Of a stretch of DNA of 59,896 bases, positions 9,201-52,012 are shown one piece after another. Numbering within the stretch: position 1 is the stretch's first letter; each line of letters opens with the position of its first letter. Below the pieces are notes generated by a model that was not told the DNA's origin, made no database searches, and saw nothing but the letters and a program-made list of their open reading frames with translations. A program made the position numbers and the translations under genes. The DNA comes from a bacterium. GTDB taxonomy: Bacteria > Electryoneota > RPQS01 > DYHQ01. The stretch is taken from NCBI GenBank assembly GCA_030622545.1, contig JAUXGA010000015.1, positions 1 to 59,896 on the forward strand, in the 5' to 3' direction.

Positions 9201-12014
9201 CTACTTTGCAGTGCTCCAGGAAGTCTTCGTGGTACGATGGAACTTCATACCCTTCTTTAGTGCTTCCTTGCTAATCCTCTTCGGCATGGCGCCCTTTGTC
9301 AGAGGCGACCAGGCTTCACCTACCTTATGACTGGCTGTCTTGTAGTAATCCGCATAACGCATCGGGCCGATGTCTGTCGGAATCGTCATTGACGGAGGCT
9401 CAACGGTAGGATCACAGGCACCTGCAACAACGTACAGAGCTTTCTGTTCGGTTCCGAGAACATCCTGATACGGCGGCTGGACATTGCTGGCAATCAGCGA
9501 GAAGTCGCCCGGCCACGCCGGATCATCCATATCGGCTGCGCGATAGACATCGTGTCCGCAAGCGGATGGAGTCCAATTGAGCTCGACATTGCCCGTACCG
9601 TCTTCGATAACCGTCAAATCGCTCGGGTCGACAATACCGCACTCGACGGCACGCAGAATCAGATCACTGTGGGGAACTGGGGGATCCGGAGGAGGAGGGT
9701 TAAAGTACGACGTGTCAATGTTCCAGGAACCACTGCCGGGGATCTCGTCCGGATAGAAGATGTACGTACGATAGTCGGGATACGACGTCCCGCTCGGACC
9801 ATCTGAGTCAAATGCGACCCCTTCCAATTCCGGATATTCGGCACCTGTAAGGTTACGCATGGCGATGTAGAAGTCGCCTTCGGTGATTTCAATGCACGGG
9901 CAGAACTTCACATAGTACCAGCTGTTGAAGCTCGTGTCATCACAAGCGTTAACGCCGAGGTTCCAGCACATTCCCGTTTCATCCGGACCGTAGAGCAGCG
10001 TACCGGGCAGATTGTCGGCGCCATTGTCATCATAGACTTCAAAAACCATGTCCTGATGGTCACCATCCGGCCAGTTGTTTGGAGCCTTGAAGTGTGCGCC
10101 ACCGAGATAGTACGGATACGAAGGCGGTGTGAAACGAACAGCCCAGCATTGCCACCATGAGAAAGAGATGTTGCCGTACCAGTCCTCACCATCATCATAG
10201 GCGATTTCGGACGGCGTGCTCATGATGTCAACATGGTAATGCTCCGTCGGTGCCGTCGTCGGTAAAAGCGTCGTCTGTCCTGAACCACCCGGATCGGTCG
10301 CTGAGAAGTAGTAGCCGTAGCGGCAGCAGCTCGTCAAACTTGGAACCATAGCCTCATAAAGGTTGTTATACTCGCAACCTGTAACCGGCGTCATGGCAAC
10401 GCTGGCCCACGTATGCGTCTGGTCATCGGTATAATATAGCAAGACGGTCATCCCGTCATTGTTAGGATCCTGTACATGCGCCGTGACGTGAATAAAGTTG
10501 TCCGTGACATCACAGTGATGTTCATGTGTTATCACCGGCGGAAGCTGCGGCAAGCTGTCGATTCGGATATCGTCGATAAACCAGTTATCAGCATAGGCGC
10601 CGGTATACAGGAACGCAATTCCGACACTGTCGGTGACACAATCGATAATGAAATGAGGGCCTTCATCAATCCACTCATTTTCAGCCGTAGGCGGAATCTC
10701 GTCGATAAAATAGTAGTGTGAGCAGTCCGGAGACGTCCAGTAGAAACCATTGAAATCGTAATCGCCCGGCCACTGACATCTCTGCATCCAGGAGACCTGG
10801 GCTCCGGCATTGTCTGGATTCCTAAGTGGCGATGATGCTCTCCAGTCAACCACGAAACTGTCAGGATCCGTGTACTGGTGTCCCATCATATAGCCTTGAC
10901 TTGAATAACCGCCACCATAGATCAACCATTCCTCTTCGTCCAGTGTGGAATCACGCTGCACACCCCACGACCCGCAAACCGGATCCCAAGCTGTTCCTTC
11001 GTAGAAATTCTCGAGCCAGTGCCCATTGTAGCCGATACCCGACAAGTTAACCGTGTATACGGTTGCTGTTGCGTTTTCACCGGTGTGAGTGATGTCCAGT
11101 GTGCCCATACGGTTGCCTTCAGTCGTGGTTTGGAAAGTGACATCGAGGGTTGTCGATGCACCCGGACCAAGGACATAGGGCAGCGTGGGGCCATTGTCCC
11201 AGTAGAAATCAGGATTCGTCACAGTAATGGCTGTAATCGTGTCGTCTTCCCCCCCGATATTCGTGAGGAGAACGCCCTCTTGCTTAATGGATTCGGCGCC
11301 GGAACCCGCCCACGGGATGGACGCATGACCGAAGAAAAGATTATCCGGGGTGATCCGAAGAGTCGGCTCTGTCGATGCGCCATGTGCTGTTCCCTTGGCG
11401 CGGATCATAAGATAGCCGATTTCCGACGGATCCCGCCACGCATCCCACTGCTCCTTCCACGAACCCCAATGGAAGTAGTCAACACAACAAGCCGTCGGTG
11501 CGTTGTCGTCCCACGAATACGAGGGGGTACTATCTCCACTCGTTTTAATCTGAATAGCGATGAGAAATTCACCTTCGGTTTCGACACCATCGGGAGGATT
11601 GACCGCGTGAGTGAACCAGTAGAAGCCCGCAGCGCCCGGATTGACTTCCTGATATGCTGGGTCGTCAGGAGAGGAATATAACTCTGTACCAGGCCCGTTG
11701 GTGCAAATGCCGCCACTTCCACAGTTGGTGTAGGGCACCGTGCCATTGGCATCGTAAACCTTAATCACGTAGTCCAGATTTTGCGTATCGCCTGCAGCCC
11801 AATACCAACAGAAATGGACAGAGTCCACTAAGAAACTGTCGGTCGGCCCGACTAAGACACACGCGGCAATATCGTCAAACCAAGTATTAGCGGACGACTC
11901 GGGTGTTCCAGAGTCATTGAAGAGCTCCATATATTGTGCTTGAGCTAAATTCGGTAGCGCCGTCGCGAGGATCGCGATGCTCAGAACTGCTAAAAGTGCG
12001 CTTTTCGTAAACAT
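9201..12014 (-). CDS. Large exported protein with HYDIN/ASPM-type beta domain, no T9SS tail
   Basis: The 937-residue protein starts at ATG 12014, chosen because AAAGG lies six bases upstream and a clean signal peptide follows (MFTKSALLAVLSIAIL, cleavage after AQA). After a first beta-rich region, about residues 215-330 carry a TLRITPDNLFFG-type Ig-like domain of the ASPM/SPD-2/Hydin class. Later beta-rich modules contain many aromatic and Asp residues. Near the C-terminus (about 830-890) is a fibronectin III-like stretch. Unlike six other exported proteins here it ends in a basic tail (KRISKEALKKGMKF and on) with no NPFNPTT motif. Its function is unknown, and it may stay periplasmic or use another sorting route. 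Confidence 0.8.
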   Translation of the reverse strand: MFTKSALLAVLSIAILATALPNLAQAQYMELFNDSGTPESSANTWFDDIAACVLVGPTDSFLVDSVHFCWYWAAGDTQNLDYVIKVYDANGTVPYTNCGSGGICTNGPGTELYSSPDDPAYQEVNPGAAGFYWFTHAVNPPDGVETEGEFLIAIQIKTSGDSTPSYSWDDNAPTACCVDYFHWGSWKEQWDAWRDPSEIGYLMIRAKGTAHGASTEPTLRITPDNLFFGHASIPWAGSGAESIKQEGVLLTNIGGEDDTITAITVTNPDFYWDNGPTLPYVLGPGASTTLDVTFQTTTEGNRMGTLDITHTGENATATVYTVNLSGIGYNGHWLENFYEGTAWDPVCGSWGVQRDSTLDEEEWLIYGGGYSSQGYMMGHQYTDPDSFVVDWRASSPLRNPDNAGAQVSWMQRCQWPGDYDFNGFYWTSPDCSHYYFIDEIPPTAENEWIDEGPHFIIDCVTDSVGIAFLYTGAYADNWFIDDIRIDSLPQLPPVITHEHHCDVTDNFIHVTAHVQDPNNDGMTVLLYYTDDQTHTWASVAMTPVTGCEYNNLYEAMVPSLTSCCRYGYYFSATDPGGSGQTTLLPTTAPTEHYHVDIMSTPSEIAYDDGEDWYGNISFSWWQCWAVRFTPPSYPYYLGGAHFKAPNNWPDGDHQDMVFEVYDDNGADNLPGTLLYGPDETGMCWNLGVNACDDTSFNSWYYVKFCPCIEITEGDFYIAMRNLTGAEYPELEGVAFDSDGPSGTSYPDYRTYIFYPDEIPGSGSWNIDTSYFNPPPPDPPVPHSDLILRAVECGIVDPSDLTVIEDGTGNVELNWTPSACGHDVYRAADMDDPAWPGDFSLIASNVQPPYQDVLGTEQKALYVVAGACDPTVEPPSMTIPTDIGPMRYADYYKTASHKVGEAWSPLTKGAMPKRISKEALKKGMKFHRTTKTSWSTAK

Positions 12015-12537
12015 AGAGAACCTTTTAAGAAAATCTCTTGTTTCTCTCGACATTTGTAAATTGATGAATTATTCTCTATTTATTAGTTGTGATATGGCTA
12101 ATATTTCGTATTAACAGTGGTTATTGTTGTCTATCAATGCTATCCCTTTGGATGACCTGTCTTTATAACCATATTCTCAAAGACACAATAATAACAATAG
12201 CTTATGCTCTTCAAGATCGCTGAATATATCGACTTGTACAATAGTATAAATATAGCAGTCCTCTCGCAAAAAGCTAACTAAAAATAGGAATGATAGATAA
12301 TTTTTGAAATATTATTAAGAAAGTATAAGTTCCGTATGTTCTTAATAAATAAAACGATAGGATTACTCTATTTTAAAAAGCCGTCATTATAGTAGTCTGG
12401 CTTGCTTGCAACGCCTCTCCTTTCTTTTCGGGCAATCGCCGACTTCCGAGGGTAACGAAGAAATGTATAACCAGCTCTGAAAAGAATAATCGTGCCAATC
12501 AACCTGTTACAAGCGAACAAATGAGATTTTCTATCCC
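12015..12537. other. AT-rich intergenic region
   Basis: About 520 bases separate the minus-strand exported protein from the promoter of the riboswitch operon. I see no recognisable gene or RNA in it. It must carry the promoter for the leftward gene, but no clear hexamer pair stands out. Confidence 0.5.
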
Positions 12538-12566
12538 TTGACAATTCCTGATTAATATGTTATATT
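12538..12566 (+). promoter_or_regulatory. Sigma-70 promoter of the TPP-riboswitch operon
   Basis: TTGACA at 12538-12543 and TATATT at 12561-12566 are separated by exactly 17 bases, and the riboswitch aptamer begins about 10 bases later. This is the best promoter match in the window together with the one before secD. Confidence 0.85.
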
Positions 12567-12575
12567 AAAATAGTG

Positions 12576-12668
12576 CTACTGTAGGGGTGGCTGAGCGGTG
12601 CAAGACCCGTACAGCCTGAGATAAAACCCTTCGAACCTGATCTGGATTATACCAGCGTAGGAAGCAGT
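12576..12668 (+). promoter_or_regulatory. TPP (thi-box) riboswitch aptamer
   Basis: The conserved thi-box blocks are in order: AGGGGTG, GCCTGAGATAAA, ACCC, GAACCTGATCTGG and ATACCAGCGTAGGAA. These form the pyrimidine-sensing and pyrophosphate-sensing arms of the thiamine pyrophosphate aptamer. The aptamer lies between a strong promoter and a terminator hairpin, so binding of TPP should favour termination and shut off the TonB receptor and symporter genes. A variable stem (GTGCAAGACCCGTAC region) sits between the blocks, as in many natural examples. Confidence 0.95.
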
Positions 12669-12692
12669 GGCGGAAGAGGGTTTTTTTCTTGA

Positions 12693-12726
12693 CCGTCATT
12701 CGGTTTCTCCGATGGCGGTTTTTTCT
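12693..12726 (+). terminator. Riboswitch expression-platform terminator
   Basis: CCGTCATTCGG pairs, with G-T pairs, with TCCGATGGCGG around TTTC and is followed by TTTTTTCTTT. It ends 18 bases before the receptor ATG. Its position after the aptamer indicates control by transcription attenuation. An anti-terminator pairing was not worked out. Confidence 0.8.
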
Positions 12727-12743
12727 TTGTGGAGGATAACATC

Positions 12744-15341
12744 ATGTTTGTGCGAATTCTACTTGCGATTCTGCTGTGCTCTCTAACTGCGACCTTCGCG
12801 GCGGGAGCCGTGTTGCAGGGCAGAGTCACGGATTATTCCAGCGGCGAACCCATCGCTGGAGTCGTAATCACCATCAAAGAAACGGGCGTGAAAACCCGAA
12901 CGGACAGCGATGGGCAATTCCGCTTGGAAAACATACCCGCAGGTCGCTATGTTGTGAACGCGGCAACGCGCGGCTATTCGACAGCGGTGCGCGAAGTGGT
13001 TCTGTCTGAAAAAGATGTCATCACGTGGAATCCGGAGCTGACTCCCCGTAGCGAAAGCGCAACGGATCCCACAAAACAACCGCGTTATCTGCTACCGGAA
13101 GTAACGGTAGCCACGACCCGCGCAGGCCGGGAGACGCCGGTTTCTTTCTCAAATCTTGACAGAGAGGATGTCGAGACGCGGTATCACACGCAGGATGTTC
13201 CGCTGCTCTTATGCGAGTTGCCGGGAATCCATGCCTATTCCGATGCCGCGAGTAGCGTCGGTTATTCTTACTTGAAGCTTCGCGGCTTCTCACAAAATCG
13301 GGTAGCCGTGATGCTCAACAACGTCCCGCTCAATGACGCGGAATCCCACGAGGTTTTCTGGATTGACCTGCCCGATTTTCCGAGCGATGTTCAGGACATT
13401 CAGATTCAGCGCGGAGTGGGTAGTTCGCTCTATGGCGCAGCGGCGTTGGGTGGCTCGATTAACCTGATTACGAAAGTGCCCGGTTCCGGGGAAGTGCCGG
13501 GAATTAAAATCGTCGGGGGTTACGGCAGTTTCAACACACGCAAAGCGTCGCTGTCGATGACGTCCGGACGCATTGCAGGGCGATACGGTTTCTCGGGTCG
13601 TTTGACGCGTATTCATTCGGACGGTTATCGCTTCGGGAGCTGGACGGATTTATGGAGTTACCATTTTTCAGCGGCGAGATATACCAAGCATCACACGACA
13701 CATGTGAATTTCTACGGCGGCCAGGAACGAACACATTTGGCTTATAACGGAATTCCAAAGGCAGCGGTGGACGGTTTGATTACCGGCGATAAAGACCATG
13801 ACCGTCGCCTGAATCCGCAGACATACGAGAATGAGATTGACAATTTTTTCCAGCCGCACTATGAGCTGCATGACGAATGGAAACTGACGGACAAGCTCGA
13901 CCTTAACAATACGATTTATCTCTTTCGCGGCGATGGCTACTATGACCAGTGGCGTCCCGGCAAAAAACTTGAGGAATACTTTTTCGAGCCGGGGCAGGAG
14001 ACAGTGCAGGTGAATTTGGATACGCTTTTTGAGTCGTCGTACTATGTGGATGAAAACGATGATGGAATGCCTGACCCGGATACGCTCGCGGACGGTCATA
14101 TCGTCTATCATCTCGAGCGCTTTGATTTACTTCGCCGGCGGAATATCAGCGAAACGGATTGGGGCTGGATTCCGAGATTGTCACTCGATTATGGGAAAGG
14201 CGAAGCGGTTATTGGTGGAGCAATCCGGCTGCATGATGCGCGTCACGAAGGACTCGTACGCTGGGGCAATCCGCTTCCAGTGCGCGTGAATCCTGATTAT
14301 CATTATTACGACTATCGCGTGAAGAAGCAGAGTCTGTCCGGCTTCATTCATCTGTTTCACTCGCTGACACCAAAGCTGCGGGTGATGGTGGATTTGCAGG
14401 TGCAGTCGCAGCGTTATCAGATGGAAGACGACAAGCTATTCGGTGTGGAAACGGACAAAACGTTCGACGCTTTCACGCCGCGTTTCGGTTTGAATTATCT
14501 GCTACTCAGTCCCGACAAACGTCGCAACATTCCTGCGGCGAGTGTGTACGCGAATTTCTCGATGGCTCAGCGCGAACCGGCGTTCAAAGACATTTATGAT
14601 CCGCAGGATTACTGGTCATCGCCATTGACCGTTCCAGACCGTTTCGAGGCTCATACTGGCGGCTACAAATATATCGGAGAATCGCTGAAACCGGAAAAGC
14701 TTTCCGATATCGAAATCGGAACATCGTGGGAATGGTCACGTGCTGGTTTTGGAGTGAATGCGTATTACATGTCGCTCCGCGATGAAATCGTGCCTTACGC
14801 TGGGCAACTCGATGATAACGGCGTGCCCATTTCCGGCAACGCCGAAAAAACACTGCATCAGGGACTGGAATTCGTCATGGCGGCATCGCCAAGAGAGAAC
14901 ATAAAAATCAGCGGGAATTTAGTCATCACGGATCACCATTTTGTCAACTATAAAGAGTGGGATTGGAACGCGTGGGATTTTATCAGCCGCGACGGCAATC
15001 GGCTCGCCGGAGATCCAATCTACATTCGGAATATGCGTGTCGAATGGCGACCGAAAAAATTCCTGCTGGCGATTTCATTGCGCATGGTGGGCAAGCAATA
15101 TATTGACAACAGCCAGGAAGAAGATACCGTCGTGCCGTCCTATGAAGTTCTAAATTTCGATGTCGGCTATCGGTTCGAAAAGGTGTCCGGGATTCGAGGA
15201 CTCGAATTGCGATTGCGGGTAAACAATCTACTTAATAGCGAGTACGAAAGAAGCGGTTACAGCGACTGGGATGACGGCACGCCGCGATATTTTGTTGCGC
15301 CGCCGACAAATATTTTTACCACTCTGATTATCGATGTTTAA
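12744..15341 (+). CDS. TonB-dependent outer-membrane receptor, candidate thiamine/precursor importer
   Basis: The 865-residue receptor has a signal peptide (about 1-21, MFVRILLAILLCSLTATFAA), then a carboxypeptidase-regulatory-like domain (about 22-100). A plug domain with LPGIHAY and GVGSSLYGAAALGG (about 120-235) and a 22-strand-type barrel follow. The last residues are TNIFTTLIIDV rather than the usual terminal Phe. Start ATG 12744 has GGAGG eight bases upstream. The only substrate evidence is the TPP riboswitch in its leader. Thi-box-controlled TonB receptors are a known comparative-genomics prediction for thiamine uptake in Bacteroidetes. It overlaps the next gene by 8 bases, so the two are coupled. 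Confidence 0.92.
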   Translation: MFVRILLAILLCSLTATFAAGAVLQGRVTDYSSGEPIAGVVITIKETGVKTRTDSDGQFRLENIPAGRYVVNAATRGYSTAVREVVLSEKDVITWNPELTPRSESATDPTKQPRYLLPEVTVATTRAGRETPVSFSNLDREDVETRYHTQDVPLLLCELPGIHAYSDAASSVGYSYLKLRGFSQNRVAVMLNNVPLNDAESHEVFWIDLPDFPSDVQDIQIQRGVGSSLYGAAALGGSINLITKVPGSGEVPGIKIVGGYGSFNTRKASLSMTSGRIAGRYGFSGRLTRIHSDGYRFGSWTDLWSYHFSAARYTKHHTTHVNFYGGQERTHLAYNGIPKAAVDGLITGDKDHDRRLNPQTYENEIDNFFQPHYELHDEWKLTDKLDLNNTIYLFRGDGYYDQWRPGKKLEEYFFEPGQETVQVNLDTLFESSYYVDENDDGMPDPDTLADGHIVYHLERFDLLRRRNISETDWGWIPRLSLDYGKGEAVIGGAIRLHDARHEGLVRWGNPLPVRVNPDYHYYDYRVKKQSLSGFIHLFHSLTPKLRVMVDLQVQSQRYQMEDDKLFGVETDKTFDAFTPRFGLNYLLLSPDKRRNIPAASVYANFSMAQREPAFKDIYDPQDYWSSPLTVPDRFEAHTGGYKYIGESLKPEKLSDIEIGTSWEWSRAGFGVNAYYMSLRDEIVPYAGQLDDNGVPISGNAEKTLHQGLEFVMAASPRENIKISGNLVITDHHFVNYKEWDWNAWDFISRDGNRLAGDPIYIRNMRVEWRPKKFLLAISLRMVGKQYIDNSQEEDTVVPSYEVLNFDVGYRFEKVSGIRGLELRLRVNNLLNSEYERSGYSDWDDGTPRYFVAPPTNIFTTLIIDV

Positions 15342-16761
15342 CGGGCATTTTCATCCGGTTGATTTAGCGATTCCGGCGGCATATGCTGTCGCGACGCTGC
15401 TTATCGGCATCGTCCGGTCGCGCCGCAAACGAACCGACTCCGACGAATTTCTCCTGATGGGTCGCCGGTTGACGCTCCCGGCTTTCACAGCATCGCTCGT
15501 TACGACATGGTACGGCGGCATCTTAGGTGTCAGTGAATATTCGTGGCGCTACGGATTATCCAACTGGTTTGTTTTCGGCGCGCCGTATTATCTGTATGCG
15601 CTGATTCTCGCGCTTTTTCTTGCGCGGCGCGCTCGGCAAACGCGTTTGTACAGTATTCCCGACCAGCTTGAGCAGAGCTATGGCAAACGAGTCGCTCGAC
15701 TCGGAGCGCTTGTCGTTTTTTTTATGACGATGCCCGCCGCGTATCTGGTGATGCTCGGAACACTCGGGCGCTGGGTGACCGGCTGGAGTTATCCCGTTGC
15801 GCTCGGCGTTGGCGTTCTTTTTTCGACGCTTTATCTTTATTCAGGCGGGCTGCGTTCGGTCGTGCGCACGGACGCGCTTCAGTTTTCAGTCATGTACGGC
15901 GGCTTCGCGGTGATGGTCTTGACGCTGTACGCGCAATTCGGTGGCCTGCCGTATTTGAAAGCACACGTACCGCCTGAACTTTTTACACCCACCGGCGGGC
16001 AGACATTCGCGGCGGTTTTCGTCTGGTATTTTATCGCTTCGACGACGCTCATCGAACCGGCTTTCTATGAACGTATCTACGCTTCGTCCTCACGCAGAAC
16101 TGCGACGCTGGGCATCTTCATCGCGATCGGTTTCTGGGCGTTGTTCGACTTCATGACCACGACGACTGGACTCTATGCGCGAGCGTTGTTGCCGAATATT
16201 GCAGATCCAACTGTCGCTTTCCCGGAACTGGCTCGGCGCGTTCTGCCGGTGGGATTGTTAGGATTGTTTTTGGCGGGACTGTTAGCGACCGTGATGTCCA
16301 CCGTGGACAGCTACAGCTTTATCGCGGCGGGAGCATTCGGACGGGATTTGCTTTGGAAAGGCCGAGCCAATCGGCATCCCTCGGAAATCCCTCGCTTTGT
16401 CCGTATCGGACTCGTTGTTTCAAGCGGCAGCGCATTTCTTTTGGCGCTGACGACGGAATCAGTTGTTTCGCTCTGGCATGCGTTGGGTTCGGTCGGAGCG
16501 CCGGTGTTGCTGATTCCGATGCTCAGCAGTTTCAGCCAAAACTACCGCTTCCCGAGGCGTTGGGTGTTGGCAACGATGATTTCATCCGGCGCGCTGAGTT
16601 TGAGTTGGATTCTGCCTCCAAAAATCGGCCTGATGGACGGTTATCCTCTGAATATACAACCGATTTATATCGGCCTCGGCATATCCCTCGCCTCTTACCT
16701 CCTCGCCCTTCTGATAAGAAAAAGGCCAGGAGACGAACTCCAGACCTTTCGAAAAGTTTGA
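15334..16761 (+). CDS. Sodium:solute symporter (SSS family), candidate thiamine or precursor transporter
   Basis: A 475-residue inner-membrane protein with about 12-13 hydrophobic helices and the SSS-family layout. DEFLLMGRRL lies after the first helix, and a STVDSYSF block (about residue 327) matches the STVDS sodium-site region. It overlaps the receptor gene and shares its riboswitch, so the pair likely moves one compound across both membranes. SSS-family transporters under thi-box control have been proposed before (ThiV), while Bacteroidetes more often use PnuT beside the receptor. Thiamine versus hydroxymethylpyrimidine or thiazole cannot be decided from sequence. There is no terminator-like hairpin with T-run directly after it. 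Confidence 0.85.
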   Translation: MFNGHFHPVDLAIPAAYAVATLLIGIVRSRRKRTDSDEFLLMGRRLTLPAFTASLVTTWYGGILGVSEYSWRYGLSNWFVFGAPYYLYALILALFLARRARQTRLYSIPDQLEQSYGKRVARLGALVVFFMTMPAAYLVMLGTLGRWVTGWSYPVALGVGVLFSTLYLYSGGLRSVVRTDALQFSVMYGGFAVMVLTLYAQFGGLPYLKAHVPPELFTPTGGQTFAAVFVWYFIASTTLIEPAFYERIYASSSRRTATLGIFIAIGFWALFDFMTTTTGLYARALLPNIADPTVAFPELARRVLPVGLLGLFLAGLLATVMSTVDSYSFIAAGAFGRDLLWKGRANRHPSEIPRFVRIGLVVSSGSAFLLALTTESVVSLWHALGSVGAPVLLIPMLSSFSQNYRFPRRWVLATMISSGALSLSWILPPKIGLMDGYPLNIQPIYIGLGISLASYLLALLIRKRPGDELQTFRKV

Positions 16762-17015: not shown

Positions 17016-17207
17016 GATTCCTTAGGAGTGTCCTCAACACATGGCATAGGATTAGGCCGCGGGAATAACCTCATAATAGGAACTTTTTACTCCGGAAATC
17101 GTATTAAGAAATGAAGGGGATAAAATAGGAAGATTTTAACATATAATTGTATTAATATCATATGCTTGTCAAATCCAATAGATCTTTTCTTCCTTAGAAG
17201 GTCAGAT

Positions 17208-17648
17208 ATGCTTCTTTCCATGCAAAGTGATTACGCGCTTCGGGTGCTTCTGGATATCGCTACATCTCAGGAGTTGGGCGGTATCATCACACGGGTCATC
17301 GCCGAACGTCAGCATGTGCCTCGCGTCTTTTTGACGAAGATTATTGCGCAGCTTGCCACTCGCGGTTTCCTGCGAACGCAGCGCGGCAAAGGCGGCGGAG
17401 TTTCCCTTGGGCGCAAAGCATCCGAAATCAATCTCCTCGAAGTCGTCGAGGTTTTTGAAGGACGACTGCGTTCCAATCCATGCACGATGACCGATGAGTT
17501 CTGCGACTTCTCTGAAAACTGCGCCATCCGTCAGCTCTGGTTTGATCTCGAAGGAAAGATGCGCGATCATTTGAGAGGAATGACTTTGGCGGATTTGATG
17601 GAGATGTCGTCCTCCCTGAAGATGACGCACGAAGAAGCAAACGCGTAA
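17208..17648 (+). CDS. Rrf2-family transcriptional regulator of the suf operon
   Basis: A 146-residue winged-helix regulator of the Rrf2/IscR/NsrR type. The DNA-binding part opens with SDYALRVLLDIA (about 7-18), and the wing carries RGKGGGVSLGR. Cys 92, 99 and 105 are spaced C-x6-C-x5-C, close to the C-x5-C-x5-C cluster ligands of IscR. It therefore probably binds an Fe-S cluster and reports Fe-S status. ATG 17208 is preferred over a downstream Met at 17220 because AAGG lies six bases upstream. It is the first gene of the suf cluster, 51 bases before sufC, and probably represses it when clusters are plentiful. No symbol is given because IscR and SufR-like roles cannot be told apart. Confidence 0.9.
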   Translation: MLLSMQSDYALRVLLDIATSQELGGIITRVIAERQHVPRVFLTKIIAQLATRGFLRTQRGKGGGVSLGRKASEINLLEVVEVFEGRLRSNPCTMTDEFCDFSENCAIRQLWFDLEGKMRDHLRGMTLADLMEMSSSLKMTHEEANA

Positions 17649-17699
17649 AAATAGAGATAAGGTCAGGCGCGTTTTCCTAAAGAATCAAAGGAGACTAAC

Positions 17700-18452
17700 T
17701 TGGATTCACTGGACATTACAGCTCTGCACGTTTCTGTAAAAGATAAAGAGATTCTGCACGGACTTACCCTCTCGGTGCCACGCGGGGAAGTTCACGCACT
17801 CATGGGCCCGAACGGTTCAGGGAAATCCACACTGGCGAATGCTCTTATGGGACATCCGGGTTTGACTGTGACACAAGGAGACATCCGCTGGAAGGGAGAA
17901 AGCCTTGTGGAACTCAGTCCGGATGAACGGGCGAAGCGCGGTTTGTTCCTGAGTTTCCAGTATCCGGCTGAAATCTATGGCGTGTCGGTCACGAATTTCC
18001 TGCGCATGGCTCAGGCGGCGAGACTTGGCAACGACACCGGCAGTTTGACGGATTTTCACAAGGACTTGAAGGAGCAGATGAAACTTCTGGAAATTGATCC
18101 TTCTTTTTCCAAACGTTATTTGAACGAAGGCTTTTCCGGTGGGGAAAAGAAACGGCACGAAATCCTGCAAATGGGAGTTCTCAAACCGGAGATGGCGATT
18201 CTTGACGAAACGGATTCCGGTCTGGATATTGATGCTTTGAAAATCGTCGCACGCGGAGTCAATAAATTGCGCGGCCCAGAGCGAGGCATGCTCCTCATCA
18301 CGCACTACCAGCGGCTGCTGAATTACATCGTTCCCGACCGAGTTCATGTTCTCATGAATGGACAGATTGTTATGAGCGGCGATAAAGATCTCGCCCTCGA
18401 ACTTGAAAAGAACGGCTACGACTGGGTGAAAGAAACCACTGCCTCTGGATAA
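17700..18452 (+). CDS. sufC: Fe-S cluster assembly ATPase SufC
   Basis: SufC is the ABC-type ATPase of the SufBCD scaffold that builds Fe-S clusters in the cytoplasm. Walker A is GPNGSGKST (residues 36-44), the ABC signature is [10 protein letters not shown] (about 145), and Walker B is [13 protein letters not shown] (about 170). Length 250 is normal. The start codon is TTG at 17700, with AAGGAG six bases upstream. It lies ahead of sufB with a ten-base gap. Confidence 0.97.
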
Positions 18453-18462
18453 ATGCAAACCA

Positions 18463-19875
18463 ATGAAAAAGCCAAATAATACTATCGACATCGATACTGA
18501 CAACTACGAGCGCTACGGTTTTCACACACCGGAGAAGTATCTCGTCAAGCTGCCGAAGGGACTTTCTCAGCAAGTCGTCGCAGAAATCTCCGAGCAGAAA
18601 CAAGAACCGGATTGGATGCGGAAGTTTCGCTTGAACGCACTGAAGCTCTTCGCTCGAATGCCGATGCCGACTTGGGGAGCGGATCTTTCGGGTGTGAAAT
18701 TCGATGACATTCACTACTACGTCCGCCCCACCGACCGACCGAAACAAAACTGGGATGATGTCCCGGAAGAAATCAAGGATACGTTCGACAAGTTAGGCAT
18801 TCCCGAAGCGGAAAAGAAATTTTTGGCGGGCGTCGGCGCTCAATATGAATCGGAAGTTGTCTATCATTCCCTGCAAAAACAATGGGAAGAACTCGGCGTT
18901 ATCTTTCTGGACACTGATAGCGCTTTGCGCGAGCATCCGGACATTTTTAAAAAGTATTTCGCTACGGTCGTTCCTCCCGGCGATAATAAGTTATCGGCTT
19001 TGAATAGTGCGGTCTGGTCGGGCGGCAGTTTCATCTACATTCCTCCGGGCGTGCATGTGACGATTCCTCTGCAGGCGTACTTCCGCATCAACGCTCAGAA
19101 CATCGGCCAGTTCGAACGCACGTTGATTATCGCTGATGAAGGCTCTAATGTTCAATACGTCGAAGGATGCACGGCACCGGTGTACAGCTCGGACAGTCTT
19201 CACGCTGCGGTCGTCGAAATCATCGTCCTGAAGGGAGCGAGGATGCGCTACACGACGATTCAGAATTGGTCGCGCAACGTCTATAATCTCGTGACTAAGA
19301 GAGCTTTCGCTGAAGAAGACGCTCTCGTCGAATGGGTGGACTGCAATCTCGGCTCGAAAATCACGATGAAGTATCCCTCCGTTTTTCTAAAAGGAAAAGG
19401 AGCGCGGGCGGATATTTTGAGTGTCGCGTACGCCGGTGAAGGTCAGCACATCGAAGCGGGTTCGAAAGTTTTTCATATGGCGCCGAAGACAACATCGGTC
19501 GTTGTTTCGAAATCCATCTCGCGCGCAGGCGGACGCACGAGCTACCGCGGTCTCCTAAGAGTTTCTCCGAAGGCGGCGGGTTCCAAAGCGAATGTTCGAT
19601 GCGATGCGCTGCTGCTCGACGAGAATTCCCAGACGGACACGTATCCCTATATGGATGTCCGGGAAGATGACATTTCGCTGGGGCATGAAGCGACGGTTTC
19701 CAAAATCGGGGATGAGCAACTCTTCTATCTGATGTCACGCGGCTTGTCGGAATCCGAAGCGACCGCGCTTATCGTGCGAGGATTTATCGAGCCGGTCGTC
19801 AAGGAATTGCCAATGGAATACGCCATCGAAATGAACCGTCTGATTGAGCTGCAAATGGAGGGTTCTGTTGGCTAA
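18463..19875 (+). CDS. sufB: Fe-S cluster assembly protein SufB
   Basis: SufB is the scaffold subunit on which the nascent cluster is built together with SufC and SufD. The 470-residue protein has the typical N-terminal helical region and right-handed beta-helix core, and ends with the [14 protein letters not shown] motif shared with SufD. Translation starts at ATG 18463. No strong ribosome-binding site is seen, so coupling to sufC is likely. Its 3' end contains the sufD ribosome-binding site (GGAGGG at 19857-19862), and its stop lies inside sufD. Confidence 0.97.
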
Positions 19876-21046
19876 AGAAACGATGACATCCGAGCGGGCA
19901 ACGCCGCAGATACTCTGGACTTCTCAGGACAACATAGCTTCGCTCGAAGCCGCCAATCGCACACGGGTTCCGAAAAGGAAAACGGAGGATTGGCGCTATA
20001 CGAATCCGGACGAGTTCCCGTGGGAAAAAGCTGAAGCAGCCGCTGTGCGAGATGCTCACGTAACTACGCCGATAAATACCGAGCTCGAAATCAATGTGAC
20101 GCTGCCCACGCTGGACGCCGAAATCCTTCGAGGGCTTTTAGCTATTTCTGACGAGAGACTCGACGCAAAGTTTTTACACTTGCACCGCGCGATGCGGGGC
20201 TCTGTCGCCGCGTATCGAATCACCGCGGACAACCGCGAGCCGGTGCAAATCGTTCAACACATCTCGGATTCCGCGGCATTGACAACAGTTCTCTTCATTG
20301 AAAGTGGAGCCGATGCCGTTGTCTGCAGCCGTTGGGAAAGTAAAGCCAGCGAGGCAAGCGCCGTTATCGGGCGAATCGAAATCGTTTTGGAGGACGGAGC
20401 TCGGCTGCATTTTCTCCATGAAGATAAACTCGCGTTCCACACTCATCTCTATAGGAGAGCTCACGCACAACTTGGCGAAGGCGCTGTCCTCAACTGGGGA
20501 CATCTGACAAGCGGCTCTGTTTGGAATGCTTCGATGATGGAACTCGATTTGCACAAGCCCGGAGCGGAATGCTCTCTCTATGGACTTTTCTGCGGCGACA
20601 GTACGCGACGGGCGGAAACGCGGACGCTGCAATATCACAAGCACTCTCACACGCAAAGCAATCTGCTTTTTAAATCGCTTCTCTCCGAGAAATCCCGCTC
20701 TGTTTTTCAGGGAATGATTCGCGTGGATAGAGTCGCTCAGCACACGGAAGCTTATCAAGCGTGCCGCAATCTGCTGCTCAGCGATGACGCTCGCGCTGAC
20801 GCCATTCCACGACTTGAAATCCTTGCAGATGATGTTCATTGTTCACACGGAGCGACGATGGGAACGGCTGACGATGATATGCTGTTCTATCTAATGACGC
20901 GAGGTTTGAATCGCTCTCAGGCTCTTGCAACTATTGCGGTGGGTTTCGCGGAAGAGATTATTCGTCGCGCACCAATGGAAGCTATCGCGGAGAGATGGCG
21001 CGCGATTGCTCTGCAAACCGCCAGTGGGAATTCCACTGCAAACTGA
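19868..21046 (+). CDS. sufD: Fe-S cluster assembly protein SufD
   Basis: SufD pairs with SufB and is needed for iron supply to the scaffold. The 392-residue sequence carries the beta-helix core with HGATMG (about 330) and the [16 protein letters not shown] block near the C-terminus, as in the SufBD family. The preferred start is TTG 19868, five to six bases after a GGAGGG box that lies in sufB. An in-frame ATG at 19883 has no such box. It overlaps sufB by 8 bases and shares the A of its TGA with the sufS ATG. Confidence 0.93.
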
Positions 21047-22305
21047 TGAAGAACGCTATGCCAAAGAACTCAACACAAACGAAAGCTGAAAAGCTGCGGG
21101 AAGATTTTCCGATTCTAAAGACGATGGTGCGCGGAACGCCGCTGGTTTACTTAGACAGCGCCGCCACATCGCAGCGACCATCGCAGGTTCTCGCCGCTTA
21201 CTGTCTTTTTTGCCAGTCGCACAACGCGAATGTCCATCGCGGTATCCATTCGCTGGGCGAGCAGGCGACGGATCGGTACGAAGCCGCGCGAGAGAGAGTG
21301 GCTTCGTTTATCGGAGCTCCCTCGAAACATACGGTGATTTTCACACGCGGCACGACCGAATCGATTAACCTCGTGTGTTATTCCTACGCAAATAAATTCC
21401 TAAAGCGCGGCGACATCATCGTATTGACGCCGATGGAACATCATGCTAACCTCGTCCCGTGGCAGCTCGTCGCCAACATCACTGGCGCCAAACTTCGCTA
21501 CTGGCCGATGAAACCGGACGGAACGTTGGACATGAGCGCGACAAACGATATTCTGAAACCGCCCGTGAAAATGGTCGCCTTGACACATATCTCAAACGTC
21601 TTAGGAACCATTAATCCCGTCACCGAAATTACTGCCGCCGCGCATGCTATCGGTGCGAAGGTGCTCATCGACGGCGCGCAGGCTGTGCCGCATATATCGG
21701 TCAACGTCTCTGAAATCGGCTGCGATTTCTACGCGTTTTCCGGGCACAAGATGTGCGGCCCGACGGGAATCGGCGTGCTTTGGGGACGCGAAGAACTGCT
21801 CGAAGAAATGGATCCTTTCATGACCGGCGGCGAGATGATTCAGGAAGTTTTTCTTGATCATTCGACTTGGAATGAAATTCCCTACAAGTTCGAACCCGGA
21901 ACACCGCCTATTGGCGAGGCCGTGAGTTTGGGCGCGGCGGTGAATTATCTAAGCGATGTCGGTATGGACTGGATTGAAAAGCACGACCACAAACTGGCCG
22001 CCTATGCGTTGGAACGGCTTTCATCGGAGGAAGGCATCGAAATCTACGGCCCTCTCAACGGCGAGCGTGGAGCGCTCATCTCGTTCAACGTCGAAGGCAT
22101 TCACCCGCACGACCTCGCCACCCTTCTCGACCGGGACGGCATAGCTGTGCGTGCCGGACATCATTGCGCACAACCACTGATGCGCCAGTTGGGAGTGCCC
22201 GCAACAGCGCGCGCGAGTTTTTATCTGTACAACCTGCACGAAGAAATCGACCAGCTTATGGAAGGTATTCACCGGGCGAAGGAGGTACTGGCATATGCCC
22301 GATGA
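21046..22305 (+). CDS. sufS: Cysteine desulfurase SufS
   Basis: A PLP enzyme that removes sulfur from cysteine as an enzyme-bound persulfide. The PLP-binding Lys is K235 in SGHKMCGPTG, and the persulfide-carrying Cys is C374 in RAGHHCAQ, as in group II desulfurases. Length is 419 residues. ATG 21046 overlaps the sufD stop (TGATG), which fits coupled translation. A second in-frame ATG at 21058 is possible. It overlaps sufU by 11 bases. SufU downstream is the expected sulfur acceptor, and no SufE is present. Confidence 0.96.
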   Translation: MKNAMPKNSTQTKAEKLREDFPILKTMVRGTPLVYLDSAATSQRPSQVLAAYCLFCQSHNANVHRGIHSLGEQATDRYEAARERVASFIGAPSKHTVIFTRGTTESINLVCYSYANKFLKRGDIIVLTPMEHHANLVPWQLVANITGAKLRYWPMKPDGTLDMSATNDILKPPVKMVALTHISNVLGTINPVTEITAAAHAIGAKVLIDGAQAVPHISVNVSEIGCDFYAFSGHKMCGPTGIGVLWGREELLEEMDPFMTGGEMIQEVFLDHSTWNEIPYKFEPGTPPIGEAVSLGAAVNYLSDVGMDWIEKHDHKLAAYALERLSSEEGIEIYGPLNGERGALISFNVEGIHPHDLATLLDRDGIAVRAGHHCAQPLMRQLGVPATARASFYLYNLHEEIDQLMEGIHRAKEVLAYAR

Positions 22306-39085: not shown

Positions 39086-42000
39086 TTATTTGATGAGCAT
39101 CATCTTCTTCAGCGCTGACCAGTTCCCGGCCTGAACGCGGTAGAAGTAAAGCCCTGACGGCAGATGCCCGGCATCAAACTGAATCCTATGATACCCCGGC
39201 GACATCGGTTCATTCACCAGCGTCGCTACCTTTTGACCAATAACGTTGAAGATATCAAGCTGCACGAGTTCACGCGACGGCAGGTCGAAGTTAATCGTCG
39301 TTGTCGGGTTGAAGGGATTCGGGAAATTCTGCTGAACAGCGAATTCCGTCGGAATGCCGACTTTCCTGAGTTCTGTTGACAGCCAGAGTTCCACGAAGAG
39401 CAGGTACGGCTCTGTGCTGGCTCCGTGAGTAATCTCAAGAAGCGCGTCAATATAAATTTCAGGATTATTGGGTTCATCAGGATTGTACGTCAGAACAATC
39501 GCCAACGATCTGTTTGAGGGTACGCTGCCGCTTGCCGGATCAATCGTCAGCCATGGCGCTTCCGTTACGAGTTCAATGCTGAATTCCAAATCGCAACGAC
39601 CAGCGGTGTTGGAAATGTAGAAAGAATCTTGGCAGGTCTCGTGATTGTTGCAGGCTGATTCCAGCCGTTCCGGTGAAATCTGGAACCTTGGAATCCGCAA
39701 GATAAAGTTACGCGAGACGGTATCATTACAGGCGACATCCACAGTGCGATCCAGCGAGCAATAGAGTTCCTTCGACGCACGAAGCACCTCGGAACCACAC
39801 GGTGCGACAATCCGGTAGAAAGCATCCGCATCTGAAACCGTCGTCCGACCGGTGGAAACTACTTCAACCGTTGTGTACGGAACGATTCGGTTTGTCGGAT
39901 ATTCTCGTGTATAGCCTTCCACGATTCCGGGAGTCCAGCAGTTGTAGCAGATGCATCCACCATTACGCGGGCAGAAGTCGCCGCTGTTGTTGCAGCAGTA
40001 TTCTGTCGCATCGGTGCCGTCCAGATTCTCAACACCGACGGTAGCACTCTCAAAGTGGTCCACGGTATGATACTGGAATCGAATACCGCCGTAGCGGAAC
40101 AGGATAATTTCAAAGGTAGCCGTACCGCCGAGCGCCAGATACGGTACATCTTTCCACTCGATAACAAGACCGCCATGCATGGTCTTGTACCAGAAGGTAC
40201 CTCCGCTGGACGGATCCAAATCATCCCATAGCGCATACAAAGCGCCATTTGGTTCTTCCGGAGTCGGAAGCGGGCAATCGTTCGAGTAATCGCCGCTCGT
40301 GCTTTCAAAGGTGATGAATCCGTTGGAAGCGAAGCGGAACTCGGTGAACTGTTCTCCGAAGAAATCAAACGTGAATCCAATCGGGAACGGTCCGAGGTTG
40401 CTGTCATCGCCGACATCGGTAATCTGAACAGCTTCCGGATCATCCGACAGCTCAATCCAGTTATAAACGCACAGCGCTTCACAAAGAACATTCACATCAT
40501 ACGGAGGCCCTTCGTTGCCGATTTCATCCAGAGCCGTAAACGAATAGACATACGGAAGCGAAGAATCTGGGACAACTTCACTATAGAAAGGCATATCCTC
40601 AGGAATGCCACTTGTGCGAAGCGTATCATCCCGATACACATTATACGTCTCAACGTCACTGCACGGAGTGCCATCTGCATTCAGCGTCGGTGCTTCCCAC
40701 TCGAAGGAAACTTCACATCCGGTCAGATCATCAAATGAAAGGCTTACATAGGGAATCATGCCCGGCGGCATGTTCGGAGCAACCGTAACCGGATTGGTCG
40801 AATCGGAAAGCACCGTATCGGTCGCTCCGTAATAAGCTGCTCTCACCCAGTAGGTGTGTTCGACATCTTCCGGAAGGACATGATCAAAGAAAGCCGATGA
40901 TTCCGGAGGGCTGACGTGATAAGGCTCAACCGTAACAGAATCACGGTAGACCCAGAAACGGTCAGCTTCGTCCAAGTGACCCATCGTCGTCTTCTCGCCT
41001 GACGACATCCATGAAGATTGAGCCGCTGTCCGGCGATAAGTCGTCGTAAATCTTTCGACCGGAACTATCGAACGCGCCGCACTGCGAATCGTTGGATCAC
41101 AGTCTTCTTGTGAAACGCTCGGTACTGCCAACCACAAAACTTCACCTGTCGCCGGATCCTTCGCGCTTTCGGAAGCGATACCGCCCTCATGAGAACCGGG
41201 ACCGACAATCGCTGTGGGCTGATCGCATCGATCAATGTACACACGAATCATCGGCGTGTACATGAACCAAACCGATTCAAGCGTCGACCAATCACCCGAT
41301 TCACCGGACATGCTAAAGAAGTAGGTATCGTTGAGGAAACTGTCATCATTGGAGTCTCCACCCAGTCCGAGATAATCCATACTACTCGACTGGTAGGCTC
41401 CCACAAAGAAATCGCCTGATGCGATATCCAGCGGCGTATCAAGAGCATAATCTACAAAAGCGTCCATGCCGCCCGTCTGAGTATAGCCGATTTCCAGCAA
41501 TTCCGCGCCCGGTGCGCCAGCGGTATCCGTTTCCCAGACATAAAGTTTATTGTGGCCGCTGGGTGCCGCTTGGGTTGTCCAGTAAATACGTAGACCATCA
41601 ATGGTGACTGGTTGATCGAATGTATATCTTACCGCATAGTAGCCGTGGCTGCCATAACCTAAACCGCCGGCTTCATTGGACCCATCGTCATAGTAATACT
41701 CACGCGTTTGTGATTCATGCGGGCCAATCCAGTCAATCATCACACGATCATCATAATTACCGTCGGAAACAAGACAGGTCGCCGGCAGTGTACCCACTGT
41801 AACTTCAATAATCACCGACGGTATACTTTCCACCGGTGTCGATGGTCCGTTGTCCTTGGCAGTAACGTAATAACGGTAAATTCCCTCGGGTTCATCAAAA
41901 CAATCGAAATACCATGATAAATCTCCCCCCTCCACACAAGAATCCAATACAAATGTTGTTTCTCCGGGATCACTTCGATAAATACAGTATTCATGCACTG

Positions 42001-44272
42001 TCGAATCAGAAAGCGCATTCCATGTTAAGAAGACACACCCTGACGAATAGTCCCAATTTCCGTCGAGCTCCGTTACCTGATCAGGTGTCCTCCGAGTCAG
42101 CGTGAAGTCCTCTCCCGTAACCTCGGTATACGGTAGCAGGTTTACAGAAGAAACGCCGCTCGCATAGCCGTCCAATGATGCCGTTACCGTGCGCGTTCCA
42201 CCCAGCACTCCCTCCAGCGTATAATCACCGGTCACGGATGGATGTGTCATATCCCCCAGCTCCGTTGTCACCATTACATCTGCGACATTGCCGCCATACG
42301 TCGGATCCAAAACGATGGTTCCGCTGATAGAACCCGTTCCGGGGCAGGCCACGCTAAGCCGATAGGCATCTCCCGCTGCCGGACATGCGACTCCGGCACC
42401 ATTGCAGCAAAGTTCCATATAGTTCGTACCGGTGATATCCTCAATGCCCACCGTAGCGGACGTCATCGCGCCGGAGAAGCCGGTATTATAGACAAAATCA
42501 ATCGTGCCGTTCGCTCGAATGATAACCTGGAAGGTACCGGTACCAGCGGCATCATAGAACCCAACGCCATCCCACTGAACAATAAATTCTTCCCCATCAC
42601 TGTATTTGTAAATGGTACCGCCCTGAGCGATTGAGAAATCATCAAAGAACAGATAAATCGCATTATTCGGCCCTCCCGCATCCGGCAAGCAACCATTCAG
42701 GTAGTAACCGCCGGTCGAGGTGAAACTAAGCCATCCGTTTTCGGAAATATTTATCGCCGTATAGTTGCCGCCATAGAAGTTGAAAGTAAAACCAAGTTCC
42801 GCTCCGGCATCGACGCCATCTTCGGTAGTGATATCTAAAGTATCACCTATCCCGGAAATATCATTCCAGCTATAATCGACAGCCGCCCAATCATAGAGAC
42901 CTTCTGTTCCCAAGAAGCCGGAAACATACGCCGACACGCCTTTTCCATCAGTGTTGTACGGAATCACTTCCCACTGATACGCGCCCATCGTTACCATGCT
43001 TTCATCCAGATAGGATAACGCACCACCGATGGCCGGCGATATAAAACCGACAACCCGTACCGTATCCCAGCAGGAATAGCGCCAAACAACCACACTGTCT
43101 AAATCCGCCAATGAATTGCCGGCGGCATCCACAGAAGGATTCGTCCACTCCAGGAATGCTCCCAGGGGGCTGTCATAGGCGGTGAGCTGCAAACTCGTGA
43201 CCGGACCAGGCCCCTGAACAGGGACGCCCTTCCAGCACGTATTCGTAAAGGTCACCGGCAACGTTGTACCATCAAGTCCGCCGAAGACATAGAGATCCGT
43301 TCCGTCCGTAGCCGCAGCAGGCCATACGCGTGAAACCGGTAAGGCTCCTTCATTTGTCCAGTTACCCGTAGCCGGATCAAACTTAACCACATCTCCGTAA
43401 GGTGTCCCTCCGGAAGGAGCGCTTTCGCCGCCAATCAGATAAATGTAAGCGCCGACAGCAACGGCCGTTGCATAGACACGAGGCTGCGGCATATCCGCAA
43501 GCTGAGTCCAAGAGCCGCCCGGAGTGTATTCGAGTACGCGGCTTGGGAAATTCGCTCCGCCGAAAGAGTAAACCTTACCATTACTCCCTGCAGCGCTTGC
43601 CATCCAGCCATCTGCACTCGGAAGGTCTGCAATATCGGACCATATCTCCGAGGCAATGTCCAGTTTCTGAGCAGAGGTCATCGTGGCAAACCCATCCGAG
43701 CCGCCGAACACATAAATATATGAGCCAACAACAGCGACGCCATGAGCGTAGCGCGCATTGCATTCATTAGCAAAACTGTCCCAGTCATCGGTGTTCATTC
43801 TGTAGGCATCTGTAGCTCCTGTCACCACACCCGCTTCAGTGATGCCGCCGACAATGAAAAGATTCGAACCAATCTGGACCTGACCACTACCGGTCATGCG
43901 ACGTGGAGATGAGAAGGCGGGATATCCCGTCAACCAGCTATTCAGTGCTGGATCATACGCCTCCACTGCATCAGCGTTGAATGGATGCGTCGTATCCTGC
44001 GCTCCACCGGCTACATAGAATTGTCCATTGTAATAGCCTGCGATAGCTCCATATCGAGCTGTCGGCATCGGTGCCATCACATCCCAGCTCAGGGCGTCAA
44101 GTCCTGAAAAAGGCGGCGGTTTCTGACCCGAAGACATCACAGGTGTAACACCTATCGCTGCATCGCCAATTTGCGTTTTCGCCGCGTACCCTGGGGTAGC
44201 GAAAACGGTGCCGATACAAAATGCGACTGCGAAAAGAAGGATCATTGAAATCCCAATTACTCTTTTCCCCAT
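39086..44272 (-). CDS. Giant kelch-repeat exported protein with T9SS sorting tail
   Basis: This 1728-residue protein starts at ATG 44272 with AAGGAGA seven bases upstream and a signal peptide ending near GYAA. Residues about 50-350 hold about six kelch motifs (FYVAGGAQ, LFIVGGI, IYVFGGSDG, IYLIGGES, LYVFGGLDG), a predicted beta-propeller. Fibronectin III-like domains follow. A nidogen-like FTFNFYG / ISENGWLSF module occurs twice (about 465-640 and about 1290-1440), each ending near a CCNG cysteine pair. A carboxypeptidase-regulatory-like domain is at about 640-715. The last 85 residues carry QNFPNPFNPTTTINF and end LKKMMLIK, the T9SS type A sorting domain. It is likely surface-attached or secreted, with an adhesive rather than enzymatic role. 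Confidence 0.9.
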   Translation of the reverse strand: MGKRVIGISMILLFAVAFCIGTVFATPGYAAKTQIGDAAIGVTPVMSSGQKPPPFSGLDALSWDVMAPMPTARYGAIAGYYNGQFYVAGGAQDTTHPFNADAVEAYDPALNSWLTGYPAFSSPRRMTGSGQVQIGSNLFIVGGITEAGVVTGATDAYRMNTDDWDSFANECNARYAHGVAVVGSYIYVFGGSDGFATMTSAQKLDIASEIWSDIADLPSADGWMASAAGSNGKVYSFGGANFPSRVLEYTPGGSWTQLADMPQPRVYATAVAVGAYIYLIGGESAPSGGTPYGDVVKFDPATGNWTNEGALPVSRVWPAAATDGTDLYVFGGLDGTTLPVTFTNTCWKGVPVQGPGPVTSLQLTAYDSPLGAFLEWTNPSVDAAGNSLADLDSVVVWRYSCWDTVRVVGFISPAIGGALSYLDESMVTMGAYQWEVIPYNTDGKGVSAYVSGFLGTEGLYDWAAVDYSWNDISGIGDTLDITTEDGVDAGAELGFTFNFYGGNYTAINISENGWLSFTSTGGYYLNGCLPDAGGPNNAIYLFFDDFSIAQGGTIYKYSDGEEFIVQWDGVGFYDAAGTGTFQVIIRANGTIDFVYNTGFSGAMTSATVGIEDITGTNYMELCCNGAGVACPAAGDAYRLSVACPGTGSISGTIVLDPTYGGNVADVMVTTELGDMTHPSVTGDYTLEGVLGGTRTVTASLDGYASGVSSVNLLPYTEVTGEDFTLTRRTPDQVTELDGNWDYSSGCVFLTWNALSDSTVHEYCIYRSDPGETTFVLDSCVEGGDLSWYFDCFDEPEGIYRYYVTAKDNGPSTPVESIPSVIIEVTVGTLPATCLVSDGNYDDRVMIDWIGPHESQTREYYYDDGSNEAGGLGYGSHGYYAVRYTFDQPVTIDGLRIYWTTQAAPSGHNKLYVWETDTAGAPGAELLEIGYTQTGGMDAFVDYALDTPLDIASGDFFVGAYQSSSMDYLGLGGDSNDDSFLNDTYFFSMSGESGDWSTLESVWFMYTPMIRVYIDRCDQPTAIVGPGSHEGGIASESAKDPATGEVLWLAVPSVSQEDCDPTIRSAARSIVPVERFTTTYRRTAAQSSWMSSGEKTTMGHLDEADRFWVYRDSVTVEPYHVSPPESSAFFDHVLPEDVEHTYWVRAAYYGATDTVLSDSTNPVTVAPNMPPGMIPYVSLSFDDLTGCEVSFEWEAPTLNADGTPCSDVETYNVYRDDTLRTSGIPEDMPFYSEVVPDSSLPYVYSFTALDEIGNEGPPYDVNVLCEALCVYNWIELSDDPEAVQITDVGDDSNLGPFPIGFTFDFFGEQFTEFRFASNGFITFESTSGDYSNDCPLPTPEEPNGALYALWDDLDPSSGGTFWYKTMHGGLVIEWKDVPYLALGGTATFEIILFRYGGIRFQYHTVDHFESATVGVENLDGTDATEYCCNNSGDFCPRNGGCICYNCWTPGIVEGYTREYPTNRIVPYTTVEVVSTGRTTVSDADAFYRIVAPCGSEVLRASKELYCSLDRTVDVACNDTVSRNFILRIPRFQISPERLESACNNHETCQDSFYISNTAGRCDLEFSIELVTEAPWLTIDPASGSVPSNRSLAIVLTYNPDEPNNPEIYIDALLEITHGASTEPYLLFVELWLSTELRKVGIPTEFAVQQNFPNPFNPTTTINFDLPSRELVQLDIFNVIGQKVATLVNEPMSPGYHRIQFDAGHLPSGLYFYRVQAGNWSALKKMMLIK

Positions 44273-44702
44273 CGTTTGATCTCCTTCAAAGAAAGCGGTT
44301 ATGAGAAAGTTATTCTTTAGACGTCTATCTATTTTCCGGATCTGCAAACGTGACAATGCAGACCTCACCGTTAAATGTTAATTCAATCGTTATAATATAA
44401 GGAATTTTTCAAGGATGGCAAGTGTTTTCTCAGGAAATCCCTGAAACAAGTCCTGATAGCCTTTCTTCTTATGGATAGAATTCCACTCTCTAATATATTG
44501 TAATTTATATAGTATGCTGTTTTTTGTGATTTAGCAAGTGAAATCCGCCCATCTGACGGAAATTATATCAATATCAACGCCTCTCAGCCTCTTTGGCCAG
44601 ATAGTCTTGAAGCGGAACAATTTGCTTCTTTTCGACAAGGAAAACAGCAGAGAAGAAAAATGCGACCTCACTGCCGCATCGAGGGGAAGAGATGTGGAAT
44701 TA
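44273..44702. other. Gap between two T9SS-cargo genes
   Basis: The part next to 44272 is AT-rich and should hold the promoter of the kelch protein gene. The remainder, up to the stop of the next gene, contains no recognisable gene, RNA or clear terminator. Confidence 0.45.
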
Positions 44703-47810: not shown

Positions 47811-48064
47811 GATTTTCGGTCGGTTATTCGAAATTCGCTCGAATAGTAAAATACTTCCTAAATTCAAAAAAGTCAAGGTAAAAAACTATACTCAAGCCTT
47901 CATTTCGAACCGGGAATTGGGTTCCTACTATTAAAGAGTCTCAAAGCGCTTGTTGTTCCCATAATATAGAGCAAGTCGCGTGCCCGCGTGAGCATCAGAC
48001 CATTGCATCCGAGGCATTCTATGGGAATTCATGGGAATATCAGATTTAGCGCTTATCGAAACAG
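47811..48064. other. Gap between T9SS-cargo genes
   Basis: About 250 bases without a gene. The left half is AT-rich and must contain the promoter for the gene ending at 44703. I see no hairpin terminator after the subtilase. Confidence 0.4.
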
Positions 48065-50881: not shown

Positions 50882-50952
50882 TATGTTACCTTTTCGCCGC
50901 GAGCGAATGTGTTACCTATACTGTCTCAATATAAGTTATTGAAAATATGGTC

Positions 50953-51051
50953 TGGTAGTGCCGCACGGCAGTGCGCTTGCACCCATCGCGCGTAACCTTT
51001 CTCATCGCCGAGCCGTGTTCAACAGAAGCGCACTGCCGTGCGGCACTACCA
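50953..51051. repeat. Perfect 26-bp inverted repeat made of two F3 elements
   Basis: Arms 50953-50978 and 51026-51051 are exact inverse copies, with 47 bases between. A third identical copy is at 37811-37836. The inverted pair looks like a small non-autonomous element or a bi-REP, between the subtilase and dagK. Confidence 0.8.
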
Positions 51052-51117
51052 AAATTGTTCGTCGTGGTGCGGATATTCCGGCCGGGTTAGATTCTGTTAG
51101 CAAAATCATGATTCCTC

Positions 51118-52008: not shown

Positions 52009-52012
52009 AGTT

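Follow-up and report, generated by a model that had tools for sequence, protein, structure and literature searches.

A predicted thiamine-scavenging operon in an Electryoneota bacterium: a TPP riboswitch, a TonB-dependent receptor and a sodium:solute symporter

The DNA analysed here, referred to as the window, is contig JAUXGA010000015.1 (59,896 nucleotides (nt)) of the bacterial assembly GCA_030622545.1 from the phylum Electryoneota. Positions 12538-16761 hold a candidate vitamin B1 uptake operon, in which a promoter, a thiamine pyrophosphate (TPP) riboswitch aptamer and an intrinsic terminator precede the gene of a TonB-dependent receptor and an overlapping gene of the sodium:solute symporter (SSS) family (Table 1). 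This compact unit had been proposed from the letters of the DNA by an earlier, sequence-only reading, and our analysis confirms it with exactly this range. The covariance model RF00059 matches at 69.6 bits, above its gathering score of 54.3 (E-value 1.2e-11 for the window), which places the aptamer among the TPP riboswitches, and it is the only one in the genome (2.66 Mb, 96% complete). The promoter is the best of nine scan matches in the scanned region, where shuffled sequences lead one to expect 4.2, and TTGACN...TATNTT-like boxes were seen by eye at the equivalent place in several relatives from the same order. The terminator hairpin was not listed by a simple terminator scan, for which an unpaired base in its stem may be the reason. 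Downstream of the symporter gene, an intergenic stretch is followed by an Rrf2-type regulator and suf genes.

Table 1. Features of the predicted thiamine operon in the window
Feature	Position	Strand	Basis or remark
Sigma-70-type promoter, TTGACA-17-TATATT	12538..12566	+	matches 11/12 consensus positions
TPP riboswitch aptamer (RF00059), P3 arm short, without P3a	12573..12680	+	covariance model
P1 3' strand GUGGCGG; alternative partner is the terminator 5' arm (predicted antiterminator)	12667..12673	+	
Intrinsic terminator: hairpin 12691-12720 and T tail	12691..12726	+	about -16 kcal/mol
Ribosome-binding site GGAGG	12731..12735	+	read from sequence
TonB-dependent receptor, 865 aa from ATG	12744..15341	+	Pfam; frame open from GTG 12729
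Sodium:solute symporter (SSS, SLC5-like), 475 aa	15334..16761	+	Pfam SSF, fold

The receptor carries the plug (PF07715, 3e-15) and barrel (PF00593, 9e-27) domains of TonB-dependent receptors, plus a CarboxypepD_reg domain. Its start is likely the ATG behind the GGAGG box; the upstream GTG was set aside because it overlaps the region right after the terminator and shows no recognisable Shine-Dalgarno sequence. The symporter begins at an ATG in the 3' end of the receptor gene, and the two genes share 8 nt (ATGTTTAA). The symporter is assigned to the SSS family (TC 2.A.21) by the profile PF00474 (8e-28, 97.9 vs 22.8 bits), and its scores for the PanF and PutP equivalogs stay below the NCBIfam cut-offs (74 vs 328 and 57 vs 516 bits, respectively). 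Its AlphaFold model has a predicted local distance difference test (pLDDT) value of 87.9. Among the matches listed in a comparison that drew on the best 1000 matches of Foldseek, the closest solved fold is that of CHT1, a human choline transporter (Z score 41.6, root-mean-square deviation 3.5, 460 aligned residues, 21% identity), and SiaT, SGLT1 and NIS come next; SiaT, SGLT and CHT1 match at Z scores of 25-42.

The choline cage of CHT1 is formed by W62, Y91, W141 and W254, according to the cited part of its description (PMC11589582). In the HMMER alignment to CHT1, W62 and Y91 correspond to W59 and Y85 of the symporter, W141 is opposite a gap, and E241 takes the place of W254. The position of E241 is occupied by E or D in 27 out of 27 homologues; W59 is kept in 25 out of the 26 homologues that cover it (F in G014), and Y85 in 26 out of 26. 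Thus, with W254 replaced by an acid, the aromatic cage does not place the protein among the CHT choline transporters. CHT1 carries a quaternary ammonium ion, choline, and thiamine is likewise a permanent cation; an aromatic pocket with one acid would suit a bulky cation such as thiamine. A tree of 27 symporters, in which the row of the window carried gap characters from the alignment used (A2), follows the families, with a long branch for G014, and fits descent within the phylum.

The sequence-only reading had left the substrate between thiamine and a precursor, and had named thiC and thiG among the genes that could decide. Profile searches of the window's own genome (G000) gave no match for ThiC, ThiE or ThiN, and ThiE and ThiN are absent from all 13 genomes of the order. 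For ThiG there is a weak partial match (26.8 bits), as there is for ThiD (35.5 bits). Both scores pass the Pfam cut-off; however, the full-length ThiD and ThiG of thiC-positive relatives (six each) score 193-326 and 349-364 bits, respectively, and the two partial matches are likely cross-matches. For ThiL, the best match scores 74 bits, below the cut-off of 184. A thiamine diphosphokinase (TPK) is encoded away from the operon (PF04263, 2e-24; TIGR01378, 127.7 vs 76.4 bits). Since no enzyme was found that would join the two halves of the molecule, TPP could be made only from intact thiamine and the diphosphokinase; thus, the absence of thiC and thiE together with the presence of the kinase favours thiamine over a precursor. 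We propose that the operon very probably serves the scavenging of thiamine (vitamin B1) by a thiamine auxotroph, with transport predicted from sequence. The two-membrane route through an SSS symporter that had been suggested for a thiamine-related compound is thereby supported and narrowed to intact thiamine.

We examined the same genes in 39 genomes of the phylum, in which the symporter was counted by the profile of alignment A2 at an E-value of at most 1e-90. A TPP riboswitch was found in 29 of these genomes, the symporter in 26, TPK in 20, ThiC in seven and ThiE over cut-off in six, whereas neither ThiN nor the PnuC/PnuT family (PF04973) was found in any of the 39. The region downstream could be assessed for 28 of the 29 riboswitches; the one of G011 points off its contig and was dropped. 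A homologous TonB receptor lies directly 3' of the riboswitch in 27 of the 28 genomes, the window included. In the remaining one, the thiC-positive G029, the riboswitch precedes a thi biosynthesis operon. The symporter follows the receptor on the same strand in 12 of the 27 switch-receptor genomes (G000, G001, G002, G003, G005, G007, G008, G010, G015, G024, G030 and G033), with a distance of about 2.2 kb in G007. Receptor and symporter are also adjacent in G011 and G012, on contigs without the riboswitch, and G020 and G036 have a 4-nt overlap between the symporter gene and a thiamine diphosphokinase gene (TIGR01378 over cut-off). A symporter-only contig scan yielded one named relative, the Candidatus Zixiibacteriota contig JAHEDG010000067.1 (49% match), in which riboswitch, receptor, thiamine diphosphokinase and symporter stand in a row, with the kinase on the opposite strand. 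Linkage of the pair to a thi-box, whose consistent absence from relatives would have spoken against the proposal, is thus present in 12 of 27 genomes and in the Zixiibacteriota contig. The earlier proposal that an SSS symporter stands in for PnuT as the inner-membrane partner likewise holds, given the PF00474 assignment and the lack of PF04973.

The distribution of the symporter is opposite to that of thiC: none of the seven genomes with thiC has it, whereas 26 of the 32 without thiC do (Fisher p 1.1e-4, with kinship ignored). Six of the seven thiC-positive genomes belong to one family, so that few independent events underlie this contrast. The seventh, G029, is both the only thiC-positive and the only symporter-less genome among nine members of its family (f3), and the only one of them to synthesise its own pyrimidine. 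Its single TPP riboswitch heads a run of genes that includes those for ThiE and ThiL (locus L056, contig G029:C143), with no receptor.

The proposed mechanism starts from the genome's single TPP riboswitch, which would sense cellular TPP. In the RNAfold prediction the aptamer is closed and the terminator hairpin, at the energy given in Table 1, forms separately. With TPP bound, closed P1 would let the terminator hairpin form and transcription end; without TPP, the P1 3' strand would instead pair with the terminator's 5' arm and the polymerase would read both genes. Switching off by transcription termination is likely, and we infer its direction. A hairpin with a T run was found at the equivalent place in nine out of nine members of the order tested (the window and eight relatives, G011 being left out), and in all nine the P1 3' strand can pair with the terminator 5' arm at -11 to -18 kcal/mol. 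This pairing is moderately above that of shuffled arms (n=300). Shuffles that pair as well or better make up a fraction of 0.02-0.14 in eight members and 0.27 in one, and two of the nine P1 strands pair more weakly with their own arm than, on average, with the arms of other species. With these two points counting against it, the antiterminator is a fair prediction, not a demonstrated structure.

Once both genes are read, the receptor would bring thiamine across the outer membrane, energised by TonB, and the translationally coupled SSS symporter would move it through the inner membrane on the sodium gradient, filling the place held by PnuT in Bacteroidetes. The thiamine diphosphokinase would then convert the imported thiamine directly to TPP. 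For the symporter, we infer both the substrate and the coupling to sodium. A PnuT acting in trans was considered and rejected, as PF04973 has no match in the 39 genomes.

Several observations speak against thiamine uptake by this pair. The symporter lies elsewhere in the genome in 11 of the 27 switch-receptor genomes, and four more (G009, G016, G019 and G021) have no symporter at the threshold used; the contig of G009 stops shortly past the receptor. In families f3 and f4 none of the symporter's neighbours is recognisable as a thiamine gene, and TPK was not found in any of their 11 genomes. G004 (97% complete) has TPK and neither riboswitch nor symporter.

Three rival explanations were considered. 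Import of a thiamine precursor, hydroxymethylpyrimidine (HMP) or hydroxyethylthiazole (HET), or of a breakdown product, has a precedent in ThiV of SAR11, the best-studied TPP-controlled SSS protein, which takes up HMP in an organism that cannot use thiamine, as stated in the cited part of its description (PMC11452348). However, the use of HMP requires ThiD, ThiE and a source of thiazole. In the window's own genome the ThiD and ThiG matches are partial and weak, and a TPK, whose substrate is thiamine itself, is encoded. Neither ThiE nor ThiN was found there or anywhere else in the order; on this ground precursor import was rejected as the principal explanation, and we consider it improbable. 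Import of thiamine phosphates, that is thiamine monophosphate (TMP) or TPP, finds its support in families f3 and f4, whose genomes, apart from the thiC- and thiE-positive G029, combine riboswitch and receptor with the absence of ThiE and TPK; ThiL is over cut-off in nine of the 11, which fits import of TMP there. Yet the kinase kept in the window's own order is TPK and not ThiL, of which G000 has only the sub-threshold match noted above. SSS carriers, moreover, are known mainly for small organic solutes. For the window's operon we regard phosphate import as very improbable.

A choline, proline or pantothenate carrier standing beside a thiamine receptor by chance would agree with CHT1 and SiaT being the nearest solved folds among the matches listed, and the panF and putP families do give scores, although weak ones below cut-off. 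The linkage recurs, however, and in G020 and G036 it is replaced by linkage to TPK. Two of the four positions of the CHT1 cage have aromatic counterparts, whereas one falls into a gap and the W254 position is acidic in all 27 homologues; with W254 lost, the choline carrier was rejected despite the best fold match. We hold a chance neighbour of this kind to be extremely unlikely, and uptake of intact thiamine remains the preferred explanation.

Some relatives show arrangements that are recorded here as separate observations. In ten genomes of f3 and f4 (G013, G014, G018, G019, G023, G026, G032, G035, G037 and G038), no ThiC, TPK or ThiN was found and no ThiE over cut-off, and ThiL is over cut-off in eight of the ten (not in G018 and G037). 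Possible explanations for these ten are import of thiamine monophosphate or a thiamine kinase of an unknown type. In G021 (locus L053), the TPP riboswitch and the receptor are followed by a gene that overlaps the end of the receptor gene and has, by eye, the look of a ROK-type sugar kinase; its product is possibly a thiamine-related kinase.

Elsewhere in the window, positions 17166-22305 encode the Rrf2-type regulator (PF02082), a SufC-like ATPase (PF00005) and, by eye, SufB-, SufD- and SufS-like frames, which constitute an iron-sulphur cluster operon. On the minus strand, divergent from the thiamine operon, positions 9201-12053 encode a secreted-looking protein of 950 aa, in which a Cep192-type domain scores weakly and below cut-off. 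A row of large secreted-type proteins is encoded on the same strand at 39086-54826, including a subtilase, FlgD-type Ig-domain proteins and a Kelch protein of 1760 aa that bears a Por secretion tail (PF18962).

The closest known system is the Caldithrix abyssi locus Cabys_3975-3977, for which a TPP riboswitch, a TonB receptor, a symporter and thiamine pyrophosphokinase were described in 2017 and thiamine transport was predicted (cited part of PMC5317091). This was the only earlier description of the same gene set in the literature searched for one. By the same description, the two loci share riboswitch, receptor and symporter, whereas the window's operon belongs to another phylum, has its kinase elsewhere in the genome and has its symporter gene overlapping the receptor gene. 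In Bacteroidetes, the OMthi (BT2390)-PnuT-Tnr3 system likewise combines a TPP-controlled TonB-dependent thiamine receptor with an inner-membrane carrier; there, however, the carrier is PnuT (cited part of PMC5613172), a family without a match in the 39 genomes searched here.

TPP-controlled PF00474 symporters have long been known as ThiV, SSSP and SSSQ, as far as the cited parts of the literature go (PMC4260697, PMC11452348, PMC2211319, PMC10881298, PMC6593275), and ThiV is listed among the B1 transporters (PMC6593275), with the signature residues Y78, D139 and F254 in SiaT numbering (PMC11452348). Compared by description, the window's symporter resembles ThiV/SSSP in its SSS fold and in its TPP control, since it lies in the transcription unit of the riboswitch. 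ThiV of SAR11, in contrast, takes HMP as substrate, and the cited part of its description mentions no linked TonB receptor, whereas the symporter of the window sits with one. Relative to CHT1/SLC5A7, the closest solved fold among the matches listed, W62 and Y91 are kept, W254 has become E/D and W141 has no aromatic counterpart. It is conceivable, if somewhat doubtful, that these symporters form a separate, so far unnamed thiamine-specific SSS branch marked by E/D241, and that together with the TonB receptor they are the usual means by which most members of the phylum that do not make B1 obtain it, PnuT being missing there.

The arrangement is thus not new but a further case of a known kind. 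Our analysis broadens the range of examples and argues for intact thiamine over a precursor as the substrate. The single published example becomes a recurring arrangement, as the symporter is linked to riboswitch, receptor or kinase in 15 loci, of which 12 have riboswitch and receptor, two have the kinase and one has all three. The disputed B1 role of the SSS family, with either thiamine or HMP as the substrate, thereby becomes directly testable in a small two-gene system.

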